Shown here piece by piece: positions 17,917-57,358 of a DNA stretch of 64,000 nt. Position 1 is the first letter of the stretch; each line of letters begins with the position of its first letter. Under the pieces are notes generated by a model that had not been told where the DNA came from, ran no database searches, and worked only from the letters and a program-made list of their open reading frames with translations. The stretch comes from Hyphomicrobiales bacterium (GTDB lineage: Bacteria; Pseudomonadota; Alphaproteobacteria; Rhizobiales; Beijerinckiaceae): positions 124,001 to 188,000 of the forward strand of contig JAGXAM010000001.1 of NCBI GenBank assembly GCA_019075905.1. Direction: 5' to 3'. A program made the translations under genes and the position numbers.

Positions 17917-18105
17917 GGATCAAGGATGTGCCGGATGATGCTGCCGGATGCAAGAGCCGCGATGCCCTGCCGGCCGCAAAAGCCACAATATCACCTTGAT
18001 CTGTTCAGGTGCCATTCAGTCGCCGGGTCCTAGATTGGCGTCATGGTTAAGGGGAGCGATGGGACTTTCATCTTTCCCGAACCAACGAAGTGCAAGGAGC
18101 ACATC

Positions 18106-18588
18106 ATGACCCGTTTTTTGACGACAGATGCACGTAGCGCGCAGCCCGGGGCGAGCAGCGCAAGGTTTGGCAAGAAATTGCTGGCGGGCCTGCTGGTCGC
18201 AGGTCTGATGGTCCCCGCCTTTGCGGGAGCTGCCAGCGCCGCGCCTTTCGGCATAGCCCAGGTGCCGGCCAGCAATGCTGGCATGGTTACCAAAGTCGAC
18301 TGGCACCGCGATCATGACGGTGCCGTGGCAGGTGCCCTGATCGGCCTTGGCATTCTGGGCATTGGTGCTGCGGCGATTGCCGCGCAGCAACAGCAGGACC
18401 AGCCCTATTATTATGCGCCGGCCTATCCGCAGCCCTATTATGCGGCGCCCGCCTATTATGGCGCCCCGGCCTATTACGGGGCACCGCGCTATGAGTATCA
18501 CGATGGCGACCATTGGCGCCATGTCCACTATTACAACCGTGGTCGCGACCCCTATCCCAACCCGCGCGACGAACGCTTCGGCCATTGA
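18106..18588 (+). CDS. secreted Tyr/Pro/Ala-rich protein of unknown function
   Basis: A 160-residue protein. It has an extended N-terminal signal ending near ASAAPFG (hydrophobic core LLAGLLVAGLMVPAFAGA), a Gly/Ala/Ile hydrophobic stretch (GALIGLGILGIGAAAIAA) and then a low-complexity tail of PAYYGAP-like units rich in Tyr, ending in a charged His/Arg/Tyr segment. This resembles the small secreted BA14K-like and glycine-zipper proteins of Rhizobiales but I cannot assign a family. ATG 18106 follows AAGGAG. A strong terminator follows. Confidence 0.75.
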   Translation: MTRFLTTDARSAQPGASSARFGKKLLAGLLVAGLMVPAFAGAASAAPFGIAQVPASNAGMVTKVDWHRDHDGAVAGALIGLGILGIGAAAIAAQQQQDQPYYYAPAYPQPYYAAPAYYGAPAYYGAPRYEYHDGDHWRHVHYYNRGRDPYPNPRDERFGH

Positions 18589-18610
18589 TGACCCAAGACT
18601 GAGAAGCACG

Positions 18611-18640
18611 AAGAGCCCCTCCCCCGGAGGGGCTCTTTCA
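18611..18640 (+). terminator. rho-independent terminator
   Basis: A 12-base-pair stem, AAGAGCCCCTCC with GGAGGGGCTCTT around a CCC loop, then a T-containing tail. It sits 22 bases after the secreted-protein stop and abuts the ruvX stop on the other strand, so it probably serves both convergent genes. Confidence 0.85.
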
Positions 18641-19117
18641 GTTTTGCGGCAGGCAGGCCAGACGATCGAGCGCGCCTTGCAGGATATAGGCGGCGGCGAG
18701 CTTGTCGACGAGTTCGGCACGGCGGGCGCGCGACACATCCTGCTCGATCAGGTCCCGGGTGACGGCGGCGGTCGACAGGCGCTCGTCCCAGGTGGTGACC
18801 GGCAGGTCGATCAATGGCGCGAGATTATGGATGAACCCACGCGTCGCCTGCGCGCGCGGGCCGGAGCTGCCATCCATGTTGAGCGGCATGCCGAACACCA
18901 GCGCCCTGATGTCGTGTCGGCTGATATGCGCCTTCAGATCCTCGACATCGAGGGTGAATTTGCGGCGGCGGATGGTCAGCAAGGGGCTGGCAAGGCGACG
19001 CTCGACATCGGAAATCGCCAGTCCGATGGTCTTTGTGCCAAGATCAAGCCCCATCAGCCGGCCTTTGGCTGGCAGCGTCGCCGCCAGCGTCTCCAGACTT
19101 GTCAGGTGCAGCGCCAT
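18638..19117 (-). CDS. ruvX: RuvX/YqgF family pre-16S rRNA nuclease
   Basis: A 159-residue RNase H-fold nuclease involved in 16S rRNA 5' maturation, also called a putative Holliday junction resolvase. Key acidic motifs are present: GLDLGTKTIGLAISD, VFGMPLNMDGS, TWDERLST and a C-terminal VDKLAAAYILQ. ATG 19117 lies 37 bases after the stop of the giant coiled-coil gene on the same strand. Length is normal. The codon at 18638-18640 is the stop and overlaps the terminator stem. Confidence 0.93.
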   Translation of the reverse strand: MALHLTSLETLAATLPAKGRLMGLDLGTKTIGLAISDVERRLASPLLTIRRRKFTLDVEDLKAHISRHDIRALVFGMPLNMDGSSGPRAQATRGFIHNLAPLIDLPVTTWDERLSTAAVTRDLIEQDVSRARRAELVDKLAAAYILQGALDRLACLPQN

Positions 19118-19154: not shown

Positions 19155-22100
19155 TCAGTTGAAGCGCCCCGAGGCATGCGCCAGCATGAAATAGATCTTG
19201 GCCGCATCGGAAGCGAGCAAGGTCTGCGCATTCTGGCCCGTGGCATCGCTGCGGTTGGCATGGGCAAGGCGCGTCTCGAAATCCGCAACATACTGGCGCA
19301 CGGCCGTGGCAAAGGCCGGGTCATTGCCATAGCGCCTGGCAATATCATTGAAGCGCTCACGCCCTTCGGCGGTGTAAATCGCCAGGGACAGGGCATTGCG
19401 CTCGCCACGGCTGTGGGCGGCGATGGCCTGATACATGGCCTGCTGGTTGACCAGCCGGGCAATGTTCACGGACAGCGCTTCGAGGCTCTGGCCCGGGGCC
19501 TCGGCGTCATCACGGGCGGCGCGGGCAAGAATGTCTGCCCAGGGCTCGGAAGCGCGGGTGCCGCGCAGGGGCGGCAGCGATGCGGCGCCAGTGGCCGCCG
19601 GAGCCGGCCTGGTGGCAAGGTCAGTCGCTTCCATGGCCTGGCGCACGGCCTCAAGACCGGCAAAATCCACCGGCCTTTTGGTCGCGACCGGATGGGGCGC
19701 AGGTGCCGGGGCTGGGGCGATCTGCGGCGGGGCCACCACGGCCGGGGCCGGTGCAGCAACCTGCGGCGCCATGGTCGCGGGGGCGATGACATTCATGCCG
19801 CGCCCGGATTTGACGACCATATCGCTGAGCTCGTTAAGGGCCTTGATGTGATCGCTGACCACCTGGCGCATGGCGTTGGCCTGCGCGCTGGCTTCCTGCG
19901 GGATGAGCTTGATGCCACCCGCCAGTTCGCTGCGGGTCTCCTCCAGCTCACGGGCGATCTGGCCGGACATGTCGCGCAATTGCGCCACGGTCTCGTTGAA
20001 ACGGGTCACGACATTGTTCAGGACCTCGCCGACCTCGCGGCGGGCCTTGTCACCGGCCTCGCGCAGGGCGTCGGCCTGGCGCTCCTGCTCGCCCGACGAC
20101 AATTTGCGCAATTCGCTGAACTGCTGGTGCAGGTTGGCCTGGCCAGCCTCTGCCGATTGCACCAGATAATCGCCGATCTCGCGGGCGCGGTCCTCGGCTT
20201 GCGCGAAGGAGGCGTCGATGCGCTGGGCAAAGCTCTGGGTCATCGAGTCGAAATCTGCCGCGCGGGCGTTGATGTCGGTGAGCAAGGCTTCCAGACTTGC
20301 GCGCCGTTGCGACAGGGTGGCATCCGAGCTCGATTGCACCTGCAGCAAGGCTGCAGCGCTGGTGGCCAGCGCCCGCGCATGGCCATCGAGCCGTGACGCC
20401 AGGGCATGGCCATCGTTGAGCGTGGTCGTCGCGGTTTCATTGAGGGCATTGACCTGCTCGGAGACGCCGCCCATGGCCTGGGCAAAGTCCTTCATGCGTC
20501 CCGAAAGCGCGCCTTCGAGCGACGAGAGGTTGTAATTGGCATTATTGACCAGCGTCGACAGCGCCTGATGCGCCGCATCTAGGCGGGCCAGCACGCCGCC
20601 AAGCTCGCCACTCAGCCGGTCGCCAAGCGTGGCGAGCGAGGTGATGGAACTGTTGGTGCCGCCGTCGATCACCTCGCCCAGGGCATGGGTCGATTGATCA
20701 ATGGCTGCGGTCATTTCGACCTGCTTGCGGTTGAGATGCTGGATGATGGTGGCGCCGCGATTGTCAATGGCGTGGCCGACCATTTCGCTGACCTCGGCGA
20801 GGTTGCGATTGATGTCATAACCGCGCGCCGACAGCGTATCGATGACCAGTTTGCCTTTGACGTCAAAAAGATCCTGCAATTCGCCGAGGCGCCCTTCGAG
20901 CAGTTCGCCAAGCGCCCGGCCGCTGTCCCCAAGCGAGGCATGCACGCTGCCGAGGCGGGTGATAAGCGTCGAATCAATGTCATTGAGGCGCGCCACCAGC
21001 GTGGCGCCCAGCTCCTGGGCCCGCTGGCTCAGGGTGGAATCGAGGGCCTGATTGGCTTCATCCAGCACCCGCTGGTTGACTTCAGTGCCTGCCGCCAGCG
21101 TGCGCGCCAGGGTCTGGGTGCGCTGTTCCAGCACATTGTCGAGATCAGCACCGCGCGCCGCGAAGGACTGATCGATCAAGGCGCGGTGATTGCTGAACAT
21201 TTGCGCAGCCTGGTCAAGGGCGGCGGCATGCGAGGCCTCAGTCCCGGCCAGCGCATGGGACAGGCGCTGGTGGAAATCATCGGCATGGGCGCTGAAAGTC
21301 TGGTCGATCAGGCTGCGGTGCTCACTCATCGCCCTAGTGGCTGAATCGAGCGCGGCAATTGTCGAGGTGCCGGTCGAATCCAGCACATTGGCCAGTTGCG
21401 TGCGCTGGTTTTCAACCTCGGCATTGAGACGCACCGAATGCTCGCTGAGCAGCGCGCTGATTTCGGCGGTGCGGGTTGACAGCATGTCGGTGAGCGCACC
21501 CGTCTGCGTTGCCAGATTCTGGTTGACCTGAACCAGCGGGGTCACGACGTTGCTTTCGAGGCGATCGACATGGCCGGAAAGGGCGGCGCCGAGCGCCTCG
21601 GCACGGTTGGCCATGCCGATGTTGATCTCATTGGTGCGATCATCGAGCAAGGCAGAGACCGCTTGCATGCGATCATTCAGTTGATCGCCGATGGCCACCA
21701 GCTTGTCATCGAGCACGCGGGCAATCTCGCCGCTGCCGTCGCTGAGATTGCGGGCAACATCGATAGCGCGCTGGCGCAAGGCATCATTGAGCTCACTGGT
21801 GCGGGCCTGCAACCCGGTATCGATGCGGGTGGCGATCTGGTCGAAGGCGGCGCGCAGTGCTTCGCCGCGGGCATCGCTGTCGGAGGTGAGGGCCGACAAT
21901 CTCGCCTGCATTGACTGGGCGGAGGCCTCGGTGCGCTGCAGCAGGTGCGAATCGAGTTCCTCGGCCTTGGTGCCAATGATCGATTCGAGGTCACCAAGCC
22001 TTGCATCGATGGTTGCGGTCAGGCGGTCGACCTGGGCGTCGATCCGCTGGGCGACACCGGTATCAGAGTGGCTGATCGTGTCCTCAAACACCGAGAGACG

Positions 22101-24899
22101 GGTGGCGATGGTGTCGTTGACGCGATCGCCATGCATGCCGATGGCGGCCACGGCATCGGCGGCGGTGGCGGCAAACTCGTCGGTGACGCCGCGCAGCGCC
22201 GTGGAAATACGGCTGGTAGCGTCCTGCGCCGTGGCAAGGGCATCATCATGCGAGGTCGTGAGACCGGCCAGCAAATTGGCGCGGGCGGTTTCGGCGGCAT
22301 CGGCAAAATCGCGATGGAAGGCGTCATGGCTGGCAGCGACGCCAAGCGTCAGTGCCTCGGCCTGCGCCGTAAATCTCTGATCATGATCACGAATCAGGTC
22401 GTCGAGCGCGGTTACGCGGTCGGCGGCATTGCGGTTGAACTCATCGTGCAGCGCGGCGATGCCGCTCTGCAGTGCGGCGTGGTTATTGGCGATCTCATGA
22501 CGATGCTCGGCGCTCTGGCTGGCAAAGCTGTCACTGAAAGCCTCGGCCTGGGCGTTCTGACTTTCGAGTGCGCGGGCAAAATGATCGTGCAGGGTCGAGG
22601 CATGTTGCTCGGCCAGCGCTGTCAAGTGCTGGTGATGGGCCACAAAACCCTCTTCGATAGCGGCATTGCTGGCAGCAAGACCGGCCAGATGCGCATCGAC
22701 ATTGGTGGCAAAGCGCGCCTCGAAGGCGTCGGTCTCGCCCTTCTGGGCGTCGAGCGCGCGGGCAAACTGCTCGTTGAGGCTGGCGCCATGCTGCTCGGCA
22801 AGGGTTGCCAGTTGCTGGCGATGGGCCGCGAGGCCCTCTTCCAGCGCCGCACTTCCGGCGGCAAGTTCACCCAGATGCGCTTCGGCCTGGCGGGCGAAAT
22901 TCTGGTTGAACATGTCGGCCTGCACGGCAAAACCGGTCAGGGACTGCGCGGAAATATCGTTGAGATGGCCGCTGATGGTCGCGGCATGGTCAGCAAAATT
23001 GGCGGCGTGCTGGTCGGTCAGCTCGCGCAGGGCCTGCGTCGTCGTCGTTGCCGTGGTGGTGAATTGCTCGTGATAGCGGGCGAGGTGCTCCTGAAGCTCC
23101 TGGTTGCGCGCGGCGATCTCGGCGCGATGGGCCCCGGCCTCCTCGCTGAACTGGCCATTGAAGGCATTGAAGCTGCGGTTGATATCGTCGATGGCGCCAT
23201 TCGCAAAGGAGCCGAAATGCGTCTGCAGGGCGTCGGACTGCTCCTGCATGGCCTGGATGGTCTGGGTCGAGGATTCAACGAGCGCGCCGGTGACGCGCGC
23301 GGCGTGATCGTCAAGCTTCCGCGTGACATATTCGGAATGAGCATCGAGCGCCTGATCGAGCACCTGGCTGGCGGAGTCGAAAATCCTACCGGCTGCGGCG
23401 GTGTGGCCGTCGAGGGAGGCGGCCATTTCGGTGCCGGAAGCCACGAGCTGGTTCTGCATCTGGCTGTGGAAATTCTGGAGATTGCTGTCCAACAGGCGGG
23501 TGTGCTGGTCGAGCATGGCACCCAGCGCCTGCTGCGATTGATCGAGATTCTGGCGCGCTGCCTCGCTGTGGCGGGCAATATCTGCAGAAATGCGGGTGCC
23601 GGCTTCGGCCAGCTCCGCCCCCAATGCCGAACCGCGGACATTGACGGTCTCGTGCATCCTGTCGCCGATTTCGGCAACGCGGGCGACGAGATTGTCACCA
23701 CTGCTGGAAATGTTGTTGGCGATCTGCTCACCGGTATGATCGAGCCGGTCGATCACCTCATTGCCGCGCATGCCGAGATCGACGATCAGCGCCTTGCCGG
23801 TGCTATTGAGGCGGGCATCGATTTCGTCGATTTCGGTGGCGAGCGCCTGGGAGACCTGCGACGAGGCATTGGCGAGGTGGGTGCTGACGTCAGCGCCGGT
23901 GCGCGAAAGATTGGCGACAATATTATCGCTGTGGTCGGAGAGTTGCCTGACCAGCAGTTCACCGGCCGAACCCAGCGTGATGGCGATTTCCTCACCCTTG
24001 GCGCCAAGGGCACGGGCGACGCGCGAACCGGCGGCATCGACGCTTTCAACGATACGCGTCGACACATCGGCGAGATCGCCGGTGAGCGAATCATGGGCAG
24101 TGCTGATGGCGCCGCGCATCTGCTCGGCGCTGGCGACAAGCGCCTCGCGCTCGCTGACCATGGCTTCCACCAGCGCACGCACCCGGCGCTCGTTGTCGCC
24201 GAAGGAACGTTCGAGATTGCTGATTTCCGAATGCACCAGGGTTTCAAGCTCGCTGGCGCGGGCGAGCGCCCGCTCGATGCCGTCACCCATGGAAGCGACT
24301 TCGCGGCGGATGGCCTGGCTCAGGCTGATGACCTGCTCGCTGGCGAGACTTTCCGGCTCGGCAAGGCGCAGAGCGACCTGCGTCATCGAGCGGGTGGTCA
24401 GCCGCAATTCGCGCACGCGCACCATGAGGGCGGCGACCACGAAAGCCACCAGCACCGGCCCGACCAGAGCCGCGACCAGAAAGCCGCTGCGAGCGGCATC
24501 GAAGGGCACCAGCAGATCATTGTGGCTCGTGGCATAAAAGCCGCAGAGACCTGCCCAGGCGAGCGAGGCCGCCAGGGCGAGGCCATAGGGCCAGCGGCTG
24601 GCGCGCACTTCCATGGTCTTGAGGATTTGCCCGGCGGTGCGGCGATCATCATTGACCGGCGAACTGCGCGGCGTTGCCGTCTTGGCAGTGTCGGCCTCGG
24701 CCGGCTGCGGTTGCACGGGTTGAAAACTCAGGGACGAGCGCCCCGCGCCGGGGCGCCCCAGGACGGCGTCGGCGACGTCCGGCAATTTCGGCACGGATGG
24801 GGCGGTGGCGTCGCCCGTGCTGCCATCGGTGAGGTTCAATGCCGTCTCCAGGGCAGACAGGGCTGCCGGATCCGCTGCGGATGATTTCAACTGCGCCAT
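19155..24899 (-). CDS. giant membrane-anchored coiled-coil protein, growth pole ring (GPR/RgsE)-like
   Basis: At 1914 residues this is the largest gene here. Visible order: a disordered N-terminus (1-100), two membrane helices (about 104-123 and 139-162), then about 1500 residues of Ala/Asp/Glu/His-rich helical repeats with apolipoprotein-like periodicity, a Pro/Ala-rich linker (about 1700-1740) and a C-terminal globular domain (about 1743-1914, AEGRERFNDIARRYG). Size and layout match the Growth Pole Ring protein of Agrobacterium and RgsE of Sinorhizobium, which form a ring at the growing pole; this assignment rests on architecture. Neighbouring Hpt and ferredoxin genes strengthen a Hyphomicrobiales origin. 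A GAGG site precedes ATG 24899. Confidence 0.7.
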   Translation of the reverse strand: MAQLKSSAADPAALSALETALNLTDGSTGDATAPSVPKLPDVADAVLGRPGAGRSSLSFQPVQPQPAEADTAKTATPRSSPVNDDRRTAGQILKTMEVRASRWPYGLALAASLAWAGLCGFYATSHNDLLVPFDAARSGFLVAALVGPVLVAFVVAALMVRVRELRLTTRSMTQVALRLAEPESLASEQVISLSQAIRREVASMGDGIERALARASELETLVHSEISNLERSFGDNERRVRALVEAMVSEREALVASAEQMRGAISTAHDSLTGDLADVSTRIVESVDAAGSRVARALGAKGEEIAITLGSAGELLVRQLSDHSDNIVANLSRTGADVSTHLANASSQVSQALATEIDEIDARLNSTGKALIVDLGMRGNEVIDRLDHTGEQIANNISSSGDNLVARVAEIGDRMHETVNVRGSALGAELAEAGTRISADIARHSEAARQNLDQSQQALGAMLDQHTRLLDSNLQNFHSQMQNQLVASGTEMAASLDGHTAAAGRIFDSASQVLDQALDAHSEYVTRKLDDHAARVTGALVESSTQTIQAMQEQSDALQTHFGSFANGAIDDINRSFNAFNGQFSEEAGAHRAEIAARNQELQEHLARYHEQFTTTATTTTQALRELTDQHAANFADHAATISGHLNDISAQSLTGFAVQADMFNQNFARQAEAHLGELAAGSAALEEGLAAHRQQLATLAEQHGASLNEQFARALDAQKGETDAFEARFATNVDAHLAGLAASNAAIEEGFVAHHQHLTALAEQHASTLHDHFARALESQNAQAEAFSDSFASQSAEHRHEIANNHAALQSGIAALHDEFNRNAADRVTALDDLIRDHDQRFTAQAEALTLGVAASHDAFHRDFADAAETARANLLAGLTTSHDDALATAQDATSRISTALRGVTDEFAATAADAVAAIGMHGDRVNDTIATRLSVFEDTISHSDTGVAQRIDAQVDRLTATIDARLGDLESIIGTKAEELDSHLLQRTEASAQSMQARLSALTSDSDARGEALRAAFDQIATRIDTGLQARTSELNDALRQRAIDVARNLSDGSGEIARVLDDKLVAIGDQLNDRMQAVSALLDDRTNEINIGMANRAEALGAALSGHVDRLESNVVTPLVQVNQNLATQTGALTDMLSTRTAEISALLSEHSVRLNAEVENQRTQLANVLDSTGTSTIAALDSATRAMSEHRSLIDQTFSAHADDFHQRLSHALAGTEASHAAALDQAAQMFSNHRALIDQSFAARGADLDNVLEQRTQTLARTLAAGTEVNQRVLDEANQALDSTLSQRAQELGATLVARLNDIDSTLITRLGSVHASLGDSGRALGELLEGRLGELQDLFDVKGKLVIDTLSARGYDINRNLAEVSEMVGHAIDNRGATIIQHLNRKQVEMTAAIDQSTHALGEVIDGGTNSSITSLATLGDRLSGELGGVLARLDAAHQALSTLVNNANYNLSSLEGALSGRMKDFAQAMGGVSEQVNALNETATTTLNDGHALASRLDGHARALATSAAALLQVQSSSDATLSQRRASLEALLTDINARAADFDSMTQSFAQRIDASFAQAEDRAREIGDYLVQSAEAGQANLHQQFSELRKLSSGEQERQADALREAGDKARREVGEVLNNVVTRFNETVAQLRDMSGQIARELEETRSELAGGIKLIPQEASAQANAMRQVVSDHIKALNELSDMVVKSGRGMNVIAPATMAPQVAAPAPAVVAPPQIAPAPAPAPHPVATKRPVDFAGLEAVRQAMEATDLATRPAPAATGAASLPPLRGTRASEPWADILARAARDDAEAPGQSLEALSVNIARLVNQQAMYQAIAAHSRGERNALSLAIYTAEGRERFNDIARRYGNDPAFATAVRQYVADFETRLAHANRSDATGQNAQTLLASDAAKIYFMLAHASGRFN
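22571..22942 (-). repeat. tandem 62-residue (186-bp) repeat inside the giant coiled-coil gene
   Basis: Two adjacent units, 22571-22756 and 22757-22942, encode matching segments around AEQHGASLNEQFARAL and AEQHASTLHDHFARAL, offset by exactly 186 bases. They cover roughly residues 653-776. DNA divergence is moderate, so the duplication is not recent. Confidence 0.75.
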
Positions 24900-25010
24900 A
24901 ATCGGGCCTCACAAGGAGCTCAAAAACATGAGTTCCAAACACGTTTCACAAGAGACTATGCCATGGTCCATCTGCGCGTGCAGCATGACCCTGGCCGAAA
25001 TCCCAACTCA

Positions 25011-25025
25011 TTAACCGATATTTAC
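25011..25025. promoter_or_regulatory. CtrA-like box (TTAA-N7-TTAC)
   Basis: The sequence TTAA, seven bases, TTAC lies in the 278-base divergent region between the giant coiled-coil gene and the Hpt gene. It differs at one position from the CtrA consensus TTAA-N7-TTAA used in alphaproteobacterial cell-cycle control. A GTTAAC element follows at about 25081. Position is suitable for regulating either gene; binding is untested inference. Confidence 0.35.
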
Positions 25026-25177
25026 CATACATGGGCAGCGATATTTAGGGAACGGGACATTTCAGAAGAAATCAAACGTCGTTAACGAGCGCGGCCCCTG
25101 CCCGGGATCCGTCAAGCAAACGCTTTCTAAAGAAGCCTGTGCCATTGCTGGGCAGGTTGATGTTACGGGATCCTTTC

Positions 25178-25555
25178 ATGAACGCCTCAATGCTGCAACC
25201 GGCTGCACAAGTGCAACCGCCCTTCGATCTGGTTTTGCTGTCGCGCCAAACCGCCGGTGATGACGCGCTTGAGCGTGAATTGCTGGCCATGTTTGGGACG
25301 CAGGCGGCAGAAATTCTGGCGCGTCTCGACGCCGCGCGCCAGCTTGCCGCACCCCGGATTCAGGCCGAACTGGCGCATCGCCTGCGCGGTTCGGCGCTGG
25401 CCGTCTGCGCGCTCGAAGTTGCCAGCCAGGCCGGCCAGCTGGAATCAGCCCTGCTGAAAGGCTGCGGCGCTGCGCAAGCTTCCAAGCATTTTGAGGCGCT
25501 TGCGGCGGCTGTGGCGCGGGCGGAAACAAGTCTGGCGAGCCTGCTGGCCGCCTGA
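25178..25555 (+). CDS. Hpt domain phosphotransfer protein
   Basis: A 125-residue stand-alone histidine phosphotransfer protein. The motif AHRLRGSALAV supplies the phospho-accepting His67 followed by the expected basic-Gly-Ser pattern, within a predicted four-helix bundle. The segment FDLVLLSRQTAGDDALERELLAMF is typical of the rhizobial orphan Hpt next to the growth-pole-ring-like gene. The partner kinase is unknown. ATG 25178 is chosen over an upstream codon at 25139 because GGGA precedes it and the Hpt fold starts soon after. Divergent from the giant gene across a region with a CtrA-like box. Confidence 0.82.
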   Translation: MNASMLQPAAQVQPPFDLVLLSRQTAGDDALERELLAMFGTQAAEILARLDAARQLAAPRIQAELAHRLRGSALAVCALEVASQAGQLESALLKGCGAAQASKHFEALAAAVARAETSLASLLAA

Positions 25556-25702: not shown

Positions 25703-26023
25703 ATGGTTGATATTACCTTCACCGACGCCAAAGGCACCAGCCGCACCGTTAAGGCCGAAGTCGGCGCCACCGTGATGGAAACCGCCATCCGCAATTCCGT
25801 GCCCGGCATCGATGCTGAATGCGGCGGGGCATGCTCATGCGCCACCTGCCATGTCTATGTCGATGAAGCCTGGCTGGCGGCCGTCGGCCCGGCCGAGCAG
25901 ATGGAAGAGGACATGCTGGATTTCGCCTTTGAAGTGCGCCCGAATTCGCGGCTTTCCTGCCAGATCAAGGTGACCGAGGCGCTCGACGGGCTGAAAGTCA
26001 CCACGCCTTCCAAACAGGGGTGA
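25703..26023 (+). CDS. 2Fe-2S ferredoxin, adrenodoxin type
   Basis: A 106-residue soluble ferredoxin. Cluster ligands are Cys40, Cys46, Cys49 and Cys86 with spacing C-x5-C-x2-C-x36-C, exactly that of adrenodoxin/ISC-type ferredoxins; Cys44 is an extra residue between ligands. It probably passes electrons to iron-sulfur assembly or oxygenases. The next gene, a ferredoxin-NADP reductase, is a plausible electron donor, 136 bases downstream but with its own promoter-like AT-rich region. ATG follows GAGG. Confidence 0.95.
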
Positions 26024-55459: not shown

Positions 55460-57358
55460 ATGGCAAAAGTAATCGGAATTGACCTTGGCACGACCAACTC
55501 CTGCGTCTGCGTCATGGAAGGCACCACCCCCAAAGTTATCGAGAATGCGGAAGGTGCACGCACCACGCCCTCGATCGTGGCTTTTACGGATGATGGCGAG
55601 CGCCTCGTCGGCCAGCCCGCCAAGCGCCAGGGGGTCACCAACCCCGAGCGCACGTTTTTCGCGATCAAGCGGCTGATCGGCCGCACGTTCGATGATCCGA
55701 TGACCAAGAAGGACATTGGCCTCGTCCCCTACAAGATCGTTAAGGCGGGCAATGGCGATGCCTGGGTTTCCGCTGACGGCAAGACCTATTCGCCCTCGCA
55801 GATTTCGGCCTTCACTCTGCAAAAGATGAAGGAGACGGCGGAAGCCTATCTCGGGCAGAAGGTTGACCAGGCGGTGATCACCGTGCCGGCCTATTTCAAC
55901 GACGCCCAGCGCCAGGCCACCAAGGATGCGGGCAAGATTGCCGGCCTCGATGTGCTGCGCATCATCAACGAGCCGACGGCGGCGGCGCTCGCCTATGGTC
56001 TCGACAAGAAGGGTTCCGGCACCATTGCGGTCTATGACCTCGGCGGCGGCACGTTCGACGTGTCGGTGCTGGAGATCGGCGACGGCGTGTTCGAGGTGAA
56101 GTCCACCAATGGCGACACCTTCCTCGGTGGTGAAGACTTCGACATGCGGCTGGTTGAATATCTGGCGGCGGAATTCAAGAAGGAACAGGGCATTGACCTG
56201 ACCAAGGACAAGCTCGCCCTGCAGCGGTTGAAGGAAGCGGCAGAGAAAGCCAAGATCGAGCTTTCGGCAACGACCCAGACCGAAATCAACCTGCCCTATA
56301 TCACGGCGGATGCCAGCGGTCCGAAACATCTGACCCTGAAACTGACCCGGGCCAAGTTCGAGGCGCTGGTCGATGACCTAATCCAGAAGACCATCGAGCC
56401 CTGCCGCAAGGCCTTGAAGGACGCAGGCCTGTCGGCCGGCGAAATCAACGAGGTCGTGCTGGTCGGCGGTATGACCCGCGTGCCCAAGGTGCAGGAAGTG
56501 GTCAAGCAGTTCTTCGGCAAGGAGCCGCACAAGGGTGTCAACCCTGACGAGGTCGTGGCGATTGGTGCTGCCGTGCAGGCGGGCGTGCTGCAGGGCGACG
56601 TCAAGGACGTGCTGCTGCTCGACGTGACGCCGCTGTCGCTGGGTATCGAGACGCTGGGTGGCGTGTTCACCCGCCTGATCGATCGCAACACCACGATCCC
56701 GACCAAGAAGAGCCAGGTGTTCTCGACCGCCGAAGACAACCAGACCGCTGTGACGATCCGGGTGTTCCAGGGCGAGCGTGAAATGGCGGCGGACAACAAG
56801 ATGCTCGGCCAGTTCGATCTCGTCGGCATTCCGTCGGCGCCGCGCGGCGTGCCGCAGGTGGAAGTGACCTTCGACATCGACGCCAACGGCATTGTCAATG
56901 TCACGGCCAAGGACAAGGCCACCAACAAGGAGCAACAGATCCGCATCCAGGCCTCTGGTGGCTTGTCGGACGCCGACATCAACAAGATGGTCAAGGATGC
57001 CGAACTGCACGCGGCCGACGACAAGAAACGGCGTGAGCTGGTCGATGCCCGCAACCAGGGCGAAGCCCAGGCGCATGGTGCCGAAAAATCGCTCGCCGAA
57101 TATGGCGACAAGGTTTCGGCAGCGGACAAGAGCGCCGTCGAGGCGGCGATTGCCGATGTCCGGGCAGCGCTGGCCGGCGAGGACGTTGAAGTGATCAAGG
57201 CCAAGACCAATGATCTGGTGCAGGCTTCGATGAAACTTGGCGAGGCCATGTACAAGTCGCAGCAGGCGGAAAGCGGTGCCGCTCCCGGCGCCGAGACCGC
57301 CGCCAAGGATGATGTGATCGACGCCGACTTCAACGAAGTCCACGACGACAAGAAGTAA
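55460..57358 (+). CDS. dnaK: molecular chaperone DnaK (Hsp70)
   Basis: A 632-residue Hsp70. The nucleotide-binding domain opens [18 protein letters not shown] and includes [14 protein letters not shown] and [17 protein letters not shown]-like motifs (parts quoted). The substrate domain and helical lid follow, ending with an acidic tail [12 protein letters not shown]. Gram-negative-type insertions are present. ATG 55460 follows AAAGGA. A strong terminator closes the gene and an EamA transporter in opposite orientation separates it from dnaJ. Confidence 0.98.

Follow-up and report, generated by a model that had tools for sequence, protein, structure and literature searches.

The window, the 64,000-nucleotide stretch analysed here from a Hyphomicrobiales bacterium, carries on its minus strand an open reading frame of 1914 codons whose sequence supports its assignment as the host's ortholog of two growth-pole proteins, RgsE (SMc00190) of Sinorhizobium meliloti and GPR (Atu1348) of Agrobacterium tumefaciens. 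We consider it likely that the product is a membrane-anchored coiled-coil rod that serves as a ring-forming scaffold of the growth pole in a cell without MreB, where ring formation and the role in growth are carried over by analogy from published work on GPR and RgsE. The sequence-only reading had proposed this identity and architecture and is upheld on both. Its open frame of 1914 residues was also placed correctly, running from 24899 down to 19155, and the strand, which it had not named, can now be given (Table 1). Because a rod gene is expected in this order, the finding itself is ordinary: the RgsE/GPR family is already known from all Rhizobiales families according to PMC7327166, and the gene adds one further ortholog. 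Four aspects merit further attention: how the rod repeats are built, the preservation of register by indels, the occurrence alongside MreB, and the Hpt partner. The hendecad array, the register-keeping indels, the link through the C-terminal domain, and the Hpt pairing were not found in the open-licence literature searched, which is weak evidence of absence.

Table 1. Positions in the window of the rod gene, the parts of its product, and its conserved neighbours.
Feature	Positions	Strand	Details and basis
rgsE/gpr ortholog	19155..24899	-	1914 aa, ATG start
N domain, residues 81-320	23940..24659	-	two predicted membrane helices and conserved start of the rod; hydropathy, model, homology
Rod, residues 290-1666	19902..24032	-	hendecad array, fitted with 8 register breaks; PF01442
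Pro/Ala-rich linker, about residues 1700-1779	19563..19802	-	sequence composition
C-terminal domain, residues 1797-1914	19158..19511	-	identity to RgsE, 17-member alignment, class-wide profile match
Intergenic region of the divergent rod-Hpt pair	24900..25138		239 bases
Hpt-domain gene, divergent neighbour	25139..25555	+	HRLRGSA motif; PF01627 27.9 bits, cut-off 24.6
2Fe-2S ferredoxin gene, conserved neighbour beyond Hpt	25703..26023	+	PF00111 46.1 bits

The assignment rests on both ends of the protein. The N domain is 42.6% identical over 216 aa, and the C domain 44.1% identical over 111 aa, to a 2089-residue protein of S. meliloti, and the two whole proteins align with 328 bits (E 3e-94 in a single comparison). 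The resemblance to GPR/RgsE noted from the sequence is therefore supported by both end domains, whose dissimilarity to RgsE would have counted against it, and also by a gene order shared with the S. meliloti locus. The latter lies in strain Ak57, in a chromosome-sized record titled pSymB (CP090106.1) that was returned by a search of a plasmid collection, and its 2089 codons are annotated as ‘kinesin’. We take the protein to be RgsE because its length equals that published for RgsE (2089 aa; PMC7327166) and because there is a single matching place in the record. Neither the name given to the product nor the label of the replicon looks right in this entry (locus L064, 11446-17715). The tie of the window protein to Agrobacterium GPR runs through RgsE, for which 42% identity to GPR is given in PMC7327166. 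At 1914 residues the window protein is shorter than RgsE (2089) and GPR (2115). It has in common with them the N and C domains, a long apolipoprotein-like rod, and a proline-rich stretch before the C domain, which in GPR occupies residues 1890-2000 according to PMC8262873 and here includes 17 prolines within residues 1701-1800. The Hpt-ferredoxin gene order and the hendecad rod are additionally common to the window protein and RgsE.

The rod gene is present in single copy in the host genome (2.88 Mb in 33 contigs, 100% complete), and residues 1-285 of its product are matched in 146 of the 150 genomes of the order. These matches, together with a periodicity far above that of shuffled sequences, indicate that the rod protein is not a chance open frame. 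Two plus-strand ORFs overlapping the gene, of 979 and 564 aa, are presumably its antisense shadows. Only two loci came out of a pattern scan across named genomes, both on metagenome-assembled contigs, labelled ‘Proteobacteria bacterium’ (84% identity in the best segment) and ‘Beijerinckiaceae bacterium’ (70% identity). The earlier description of the protein as a divergent member is fair, as its C domain differs at several positions that are common to most of the 17 aligned members. For example, the window C domain (19158-19511, minus strand) reads SDAAKIY where the others have SDTGKVY.

Structurally, the protein begins with the two predicted membrane helices that had been proposed from the sequence. 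The second is strong: over the 19 residues that start at residue 140, the mean Kyte-Doolittle value is 2.79. The first, from residue 106, is marginal at a mean of only 1.39, and a cut-off of 1.5 consequently detects one membrane helix only. Both are present in a low-depth AlphaFold model (three sequences, up to residue 320; mean pLDDT 73.5, with about 50-69 in the membrane helices), which has helices spanning roughly residues 82-125 and 135-178, and then a further helix that runs without interruption from about residue 186 up to residue 320, where the modelled piece ends. C-terminal to the membrane helices, residues 183-1666 are proline-poor. At the other end, the C-terminal domain that the sequence-only reading called globular is borne out as a conserved domain by the 17-member alignment, with a length of about 118 residues. 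Its predicted model is too poor for use (mean pLDDT 50.6). No Pfam family was matched by this domain among the eight members scanned, and no convincing solved relative was found, the best being a designed protein at E 0.028.

The hydropathy of the rod peaks sharply and only once, at about 98.4 degrees per residue, close to the 3/11 turn (98.18 degrees) of a hendecad repeat, with a power of 92.6 compared to a maximum of 11.4 among 500 shuffles. The power at exactly 98.18 degrees is only 2.2, since the phase shifts at a few breaks in register. When these are permitted in an 11-position model, eight breaks over 1376 residues give a score of 398 versus 78 for one shuffled sequence. In this model, Leu, Ile, Val, Met, or Phe occupies position 0 in 80% and position 7 in 73% of repeats, position 4 holds small or mixed residues (Leu, Gly, Ala, Ser, Thr), and charged residues make up 5% or less at each of these three positions. 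The other eight positions are polar on average, and the apolar stripe is thus narrow, covering 3 of 11 positions or about 100 degrees. The RgsE rod gives an equal pattern. PMC9858780 states that hendecad dimers require small core residues, particularly Ala.

Length differences between related rods provide a second view of the repeat. We aligned 32 homolog pairs and counted rod indels of at least four residues in the 25 pairs with more than 45% identity, all from Rhizobiales, leaving seven pairs uncounted. Multiples of 11 account for 56 of the 98 indels, and 88 of the 98 are 0, 4, or 7 modulo 11, close to whole helical turns, where the 98 are not independent events because the aligned pairs share members, so that a binomial p does not apply. 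Indels of random length simulated in copies of the window rod and aligned alike were multiples of 11 in 6-15% of cases and 0, 4, or 7 modulo 11 in 27-50%, indicating that the pattern is not made by the aligner. That changes in rod length keep the helical register argues for coiled-coil assembly over lipid binding. Two loci from one genus (L119 and L136, genomes G145 and G187) are 86% identical and differ by a 417-residue rod indel, constituting a natural length variant.

The gene content of the host fits the polar growth predicted in the sequence-only reading, being as expected of MreB-independent growth that is probably polar. No match to MreB was found in the host genome at E 1e-30, and searches of the same genome yielded neither MreC nor a second SEDS protein. 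The single SEDS gene is taken as ftsW, and there is one DUF2497 gene, a family that is presumably PopZ. Two host matches to the Pfam MreB family exceed its cut-off (57.9 and 29.5 bits), neither of which reaches E 1e-30. One rejected candidate is DnaK (window 55460-57358, plus strand), which at 62.5 bits passes the Pfam MreB cut-off of 27, and the gathering score alone therefore yields false positives. The second is a 459-codon frame, presumed to be FtsA, that likewise fails E 1e-30.

MreB was found in 17 of the 103 Rhizobiales genomes searched (2 of 23 and 15 of 80), and the N domain of the rod protein is present in 16 of these 17, including the carriers of the L106 and L132 loci and with G241 as the exception. 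In PMC7327166, MreB is described in only four Rhizobiales species, all without Rgs homologs, and mutual exclusion is suggested. For RgsE this exclusion fails in our sample, whose order is that of GTDB and may be wider than the Rhizobiales of that study. Rods of at least 1000 residues occur in 33 of the 60 MreB-lacking Rhizobiales rows and in none of the 15 MreB-bearing rows, a difference that reduces to six independent pairs on starred branches. A sign test on these shows no significance (median p 1), and we do not claim a link between rod length and MreB loss. This count omits L149 (G123, 84% complete) and L150 (G128, 96% complete). The latter genome lacks MreB, encodes a 257-residue rod, and was omitted without good reason. 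A tie between the hendecad repeat and MreB loss was rejected. All 15 MreB-bearing Rhizobiales rows show stronger 11- and 22-residue than 25-residue correlation, and G043 and G099 (84% complete), which are non-Rhizobiales genomes without an MreB match, keep the 25-residue repeat.

The end domains reach well beyond the order. A profile of the C domain matches 115 of the 289 genomes of the class, four in the host's family and 111 in other orders, with five of the latter weaker than E 1e-10. Distant RgsE homologs in two other orders were already known (PMC7327166), and the present count is wider. Profile-profile comparison of the Rhizobiales members with the others gives E 1.3e-27 for the N domain and E 5.7e-37 for the C domain, and the crossed controls give E 0.67 and 0.084. 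MreB is present in 33 of 35 non-Rhizobiales genomes that carry the C domain. By sequence similarity, the C domain links GPR to mostly shorter alphaproteobacterial proteins whose genomes keep MreB.

The rods of the two groups differ in their repeat. Among 101 proteins, the 11-residue correlation exceeds the 25-residue correlation in 80 of 81 Rhizobiales members versus 6 of 20 others, and the spectral peak lies at or below 99.6 degrees in 74 of 80 Rhizobiales members versus 1 of 20 others. The periodicity table omits L064, L066, and L089, which are identical or very near to P0002 and L067, as well as L135 and L155, which are cut by contig ends. L077, L095, and L101 also lie at contig ends and look incomplete, yet were retained. 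When nine non-Rhizobiales rods were examined in detail, seven led with a repeat of 25 or 50 residues, one with 29 residues, and one had no clear long repeat. The 29-residue case (L080, genome G091; correlations at 29, 58, 87, and 116) corresponds to two hendecads plus a heptad and is between the 25- and 11-residue forms. Across the family, the rods measure between about 210 and about 2290 residues. A quick tree built on the end domains, from which L067 was also left out, places Rhizobiales on one side of a branch with an SH-aLRT of 99, and several long branches leave the rest unsure. The window protein falls within a long-rod branch of 34 rows that includes RgsE.

The same protein might work by a different mechanism, namely as an apolipoprotein-type amphipathic helix that lies on the membrane and binds lipid at the pole. 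The apolipoprotein-like repeats described from the sequence are real in the sense that PF01442 matches the rod in 12 stretches at 172.4 bits (cut-off 90), and among solved structures, human-type apolipoprotein A-IV chains alone pass E 0.001, with weak matches of E 1.9e-4 and 3.6e-4. A period of 11 residues also fits a helix lying flat on a membrane. A lipid-related role is furthermore favoured by the authors of PMC8262873. Apolipoprotein A-IV, with 396 residues according to PMC8262873, is a single-domain lipid carrier, and the narrow stripe and end domains of the window protein point away from such a protein. The label thus holds for the repeat period, which is 11/22 residues in both proteins, and less so for its implied function: strongly apolar residues occupy only two of the 11 positions, the third being small or mixed, the indels preserve helical register, and the relatives outside Rhizobiales mostly have 25-residue repeats that combine heptads and hendecads, as suits coiled coils. 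These features favour a rod closer in character to a coiled coil than to an apolipoprotein that binds lipid, and we regard the lipid-binding mechanism as rather unlikely.

Less likely again is that the protein is a general pole landmark, comparable to TipN of Caulobacter crescentus, whose role in growth is secondary or absent in this organism. The coexistence of the N and C domains with MreB in 33 of 35 non-Rhizobiales genomes, and of the N domain with MreB in 16 of 17 Rhizobiales genomes, is consistent with such a role, and GPR has been called similar or analogous to TipN in PMC8546619 and PMC13170164. The window protein, however, sits in the long-rod branch of RgsE, and the lack of MreB and MreC means that the host needs some other elongation system. 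TipN itself has 882 residues (PMC13170164). A search for TipN by name in the plasmid collection found none and returned Sinorhizobium, Shinella, and Sphingomonas records, and a nucleotide search gave eight records, in which the matched genes, where annotated, encode TRAP transporters. It is extremely improbable that the protein is an unrelated giant coiled coil whose likeness to GPR is compositional. The NCBIfam ZorA model does match at E 8e-5, and the S. meliloti relative is labelled a kinesin, but the ZorA match reaches 21.7 bits against a cut-off of 250 and covers the rod only, the list of nine Pfam families with E up to 1 includes no kinesin, and orthology is fixed by end-domain homology and gene order. 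Long hendecad coiled-coil rods are also known from Streptomyces Scy and FilP, with Scy consisting almost entirely of hendecads. PMC9858780 proposes that FilP helps to bring DivIVA to the pole and that Scy is a partner of both, and the two proteins have a DivIVA-type N-terminal domain, unlike the window protein, in which no DivIVA family is found among the Pfam matches at E up to 1. Their resemblance to the window protein would be convergent at most.

A scaffold at the growth pole therefore remains our preferred reading of the protein. Presumably, the two N-terminal helices anchor it in the inner membrane, and about 1400-1480 residues would then form one very long helix, of about 210-220 nm at 0.15 nm per residue if unbroken, which is an assumption because the hendecad is imperfect (peak at 98.4 degrees, eight breaks). 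The narrow Leu/Ile/Val stripe, along with the small or mixed third core position, might pair helices into an almost untwisted coiled coil, and the proline-rich tether could offer the C-terminal domain to partners. By analogy with GPR and RgsE, rods at the new pole would form a ring and so provide a scaffold for making peptidoglycan in a cell that has no MreB.

In most genomes sampled from the order, the rod gene has an orphan Hpt gene linked to it. Upstream of the rod gene, a divergent Hpt gene followed by a ferredoxin gene is an order common to the window and S. meliloti. Seed Hpt proteins came from the window, from S. meliloti, and from Sphingomonas, and the resulting profile, iterated over the sequences that it matched, finds a divergent Hpt gene in 52 of the 68 Rhizobiales genomes that have 1.3 kb or more upstream (the window left out). 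One of the remaining genomes has an Hpt gene in the same direction and 15 have none. In other orders the profile matches 2 of 17, and it has no match in 225 kb downstream of rod genes. Plain tblastn with the window Hpt protein gives matches in 22 of 43 rod-gene loci, and the window ferredoxin is matched in 40 of these 43. The phospho-acceptor histidine is kept in 65 of 69 sequences and is replaced in the named Sphingomonas Hpt protein and in one further non-Rhizobiales member. The divergent pairing of rod and Hpt genes is also seen in Shinella and Sphingomonas. Between the rod and Hpt genes of the window we found no TTAA-N7-TTAA box, which we take to be a CtrA-type site. A term search of the main text of PMC7327166 returned neither Hpt nor the locus number of the neighbour, and in the one open-licence paper found to contain both RgsE and Hpt, Hpt concerns another kinase.

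More tentatively, and with less confidence than in the scaffold reading, GPR and RgsE might represent Rhizobiales within a class-wide family of membrane-anchored pole rods. The gently left-handed 25-residue repeat, a hendecad plus two heptads, would have given way to nearly straight hendecads and then to lengthening in register, turning a polarity landmark into a rod whose length sufficed to determine how large the growth ring is, with the conserved divergent Hpt neighbour wiring this rod to a phosphorelay. The direction of the repeat change from 25 to 11 residues is our inference, as the end-domain tree is unrooted. If ring size follows rod length, the natural variants across the family's span of rod lengths offer a ready-made ruler experiment.

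On the other side of the rod gene, between it and a dihydroorotase-like gene, lies a 240-codon frame without a Pfam match (18016-18738, minus strand). This frame is matched in only 2 of the 43 loci, L067 and L068, which belong to the nearest relatives of the host.
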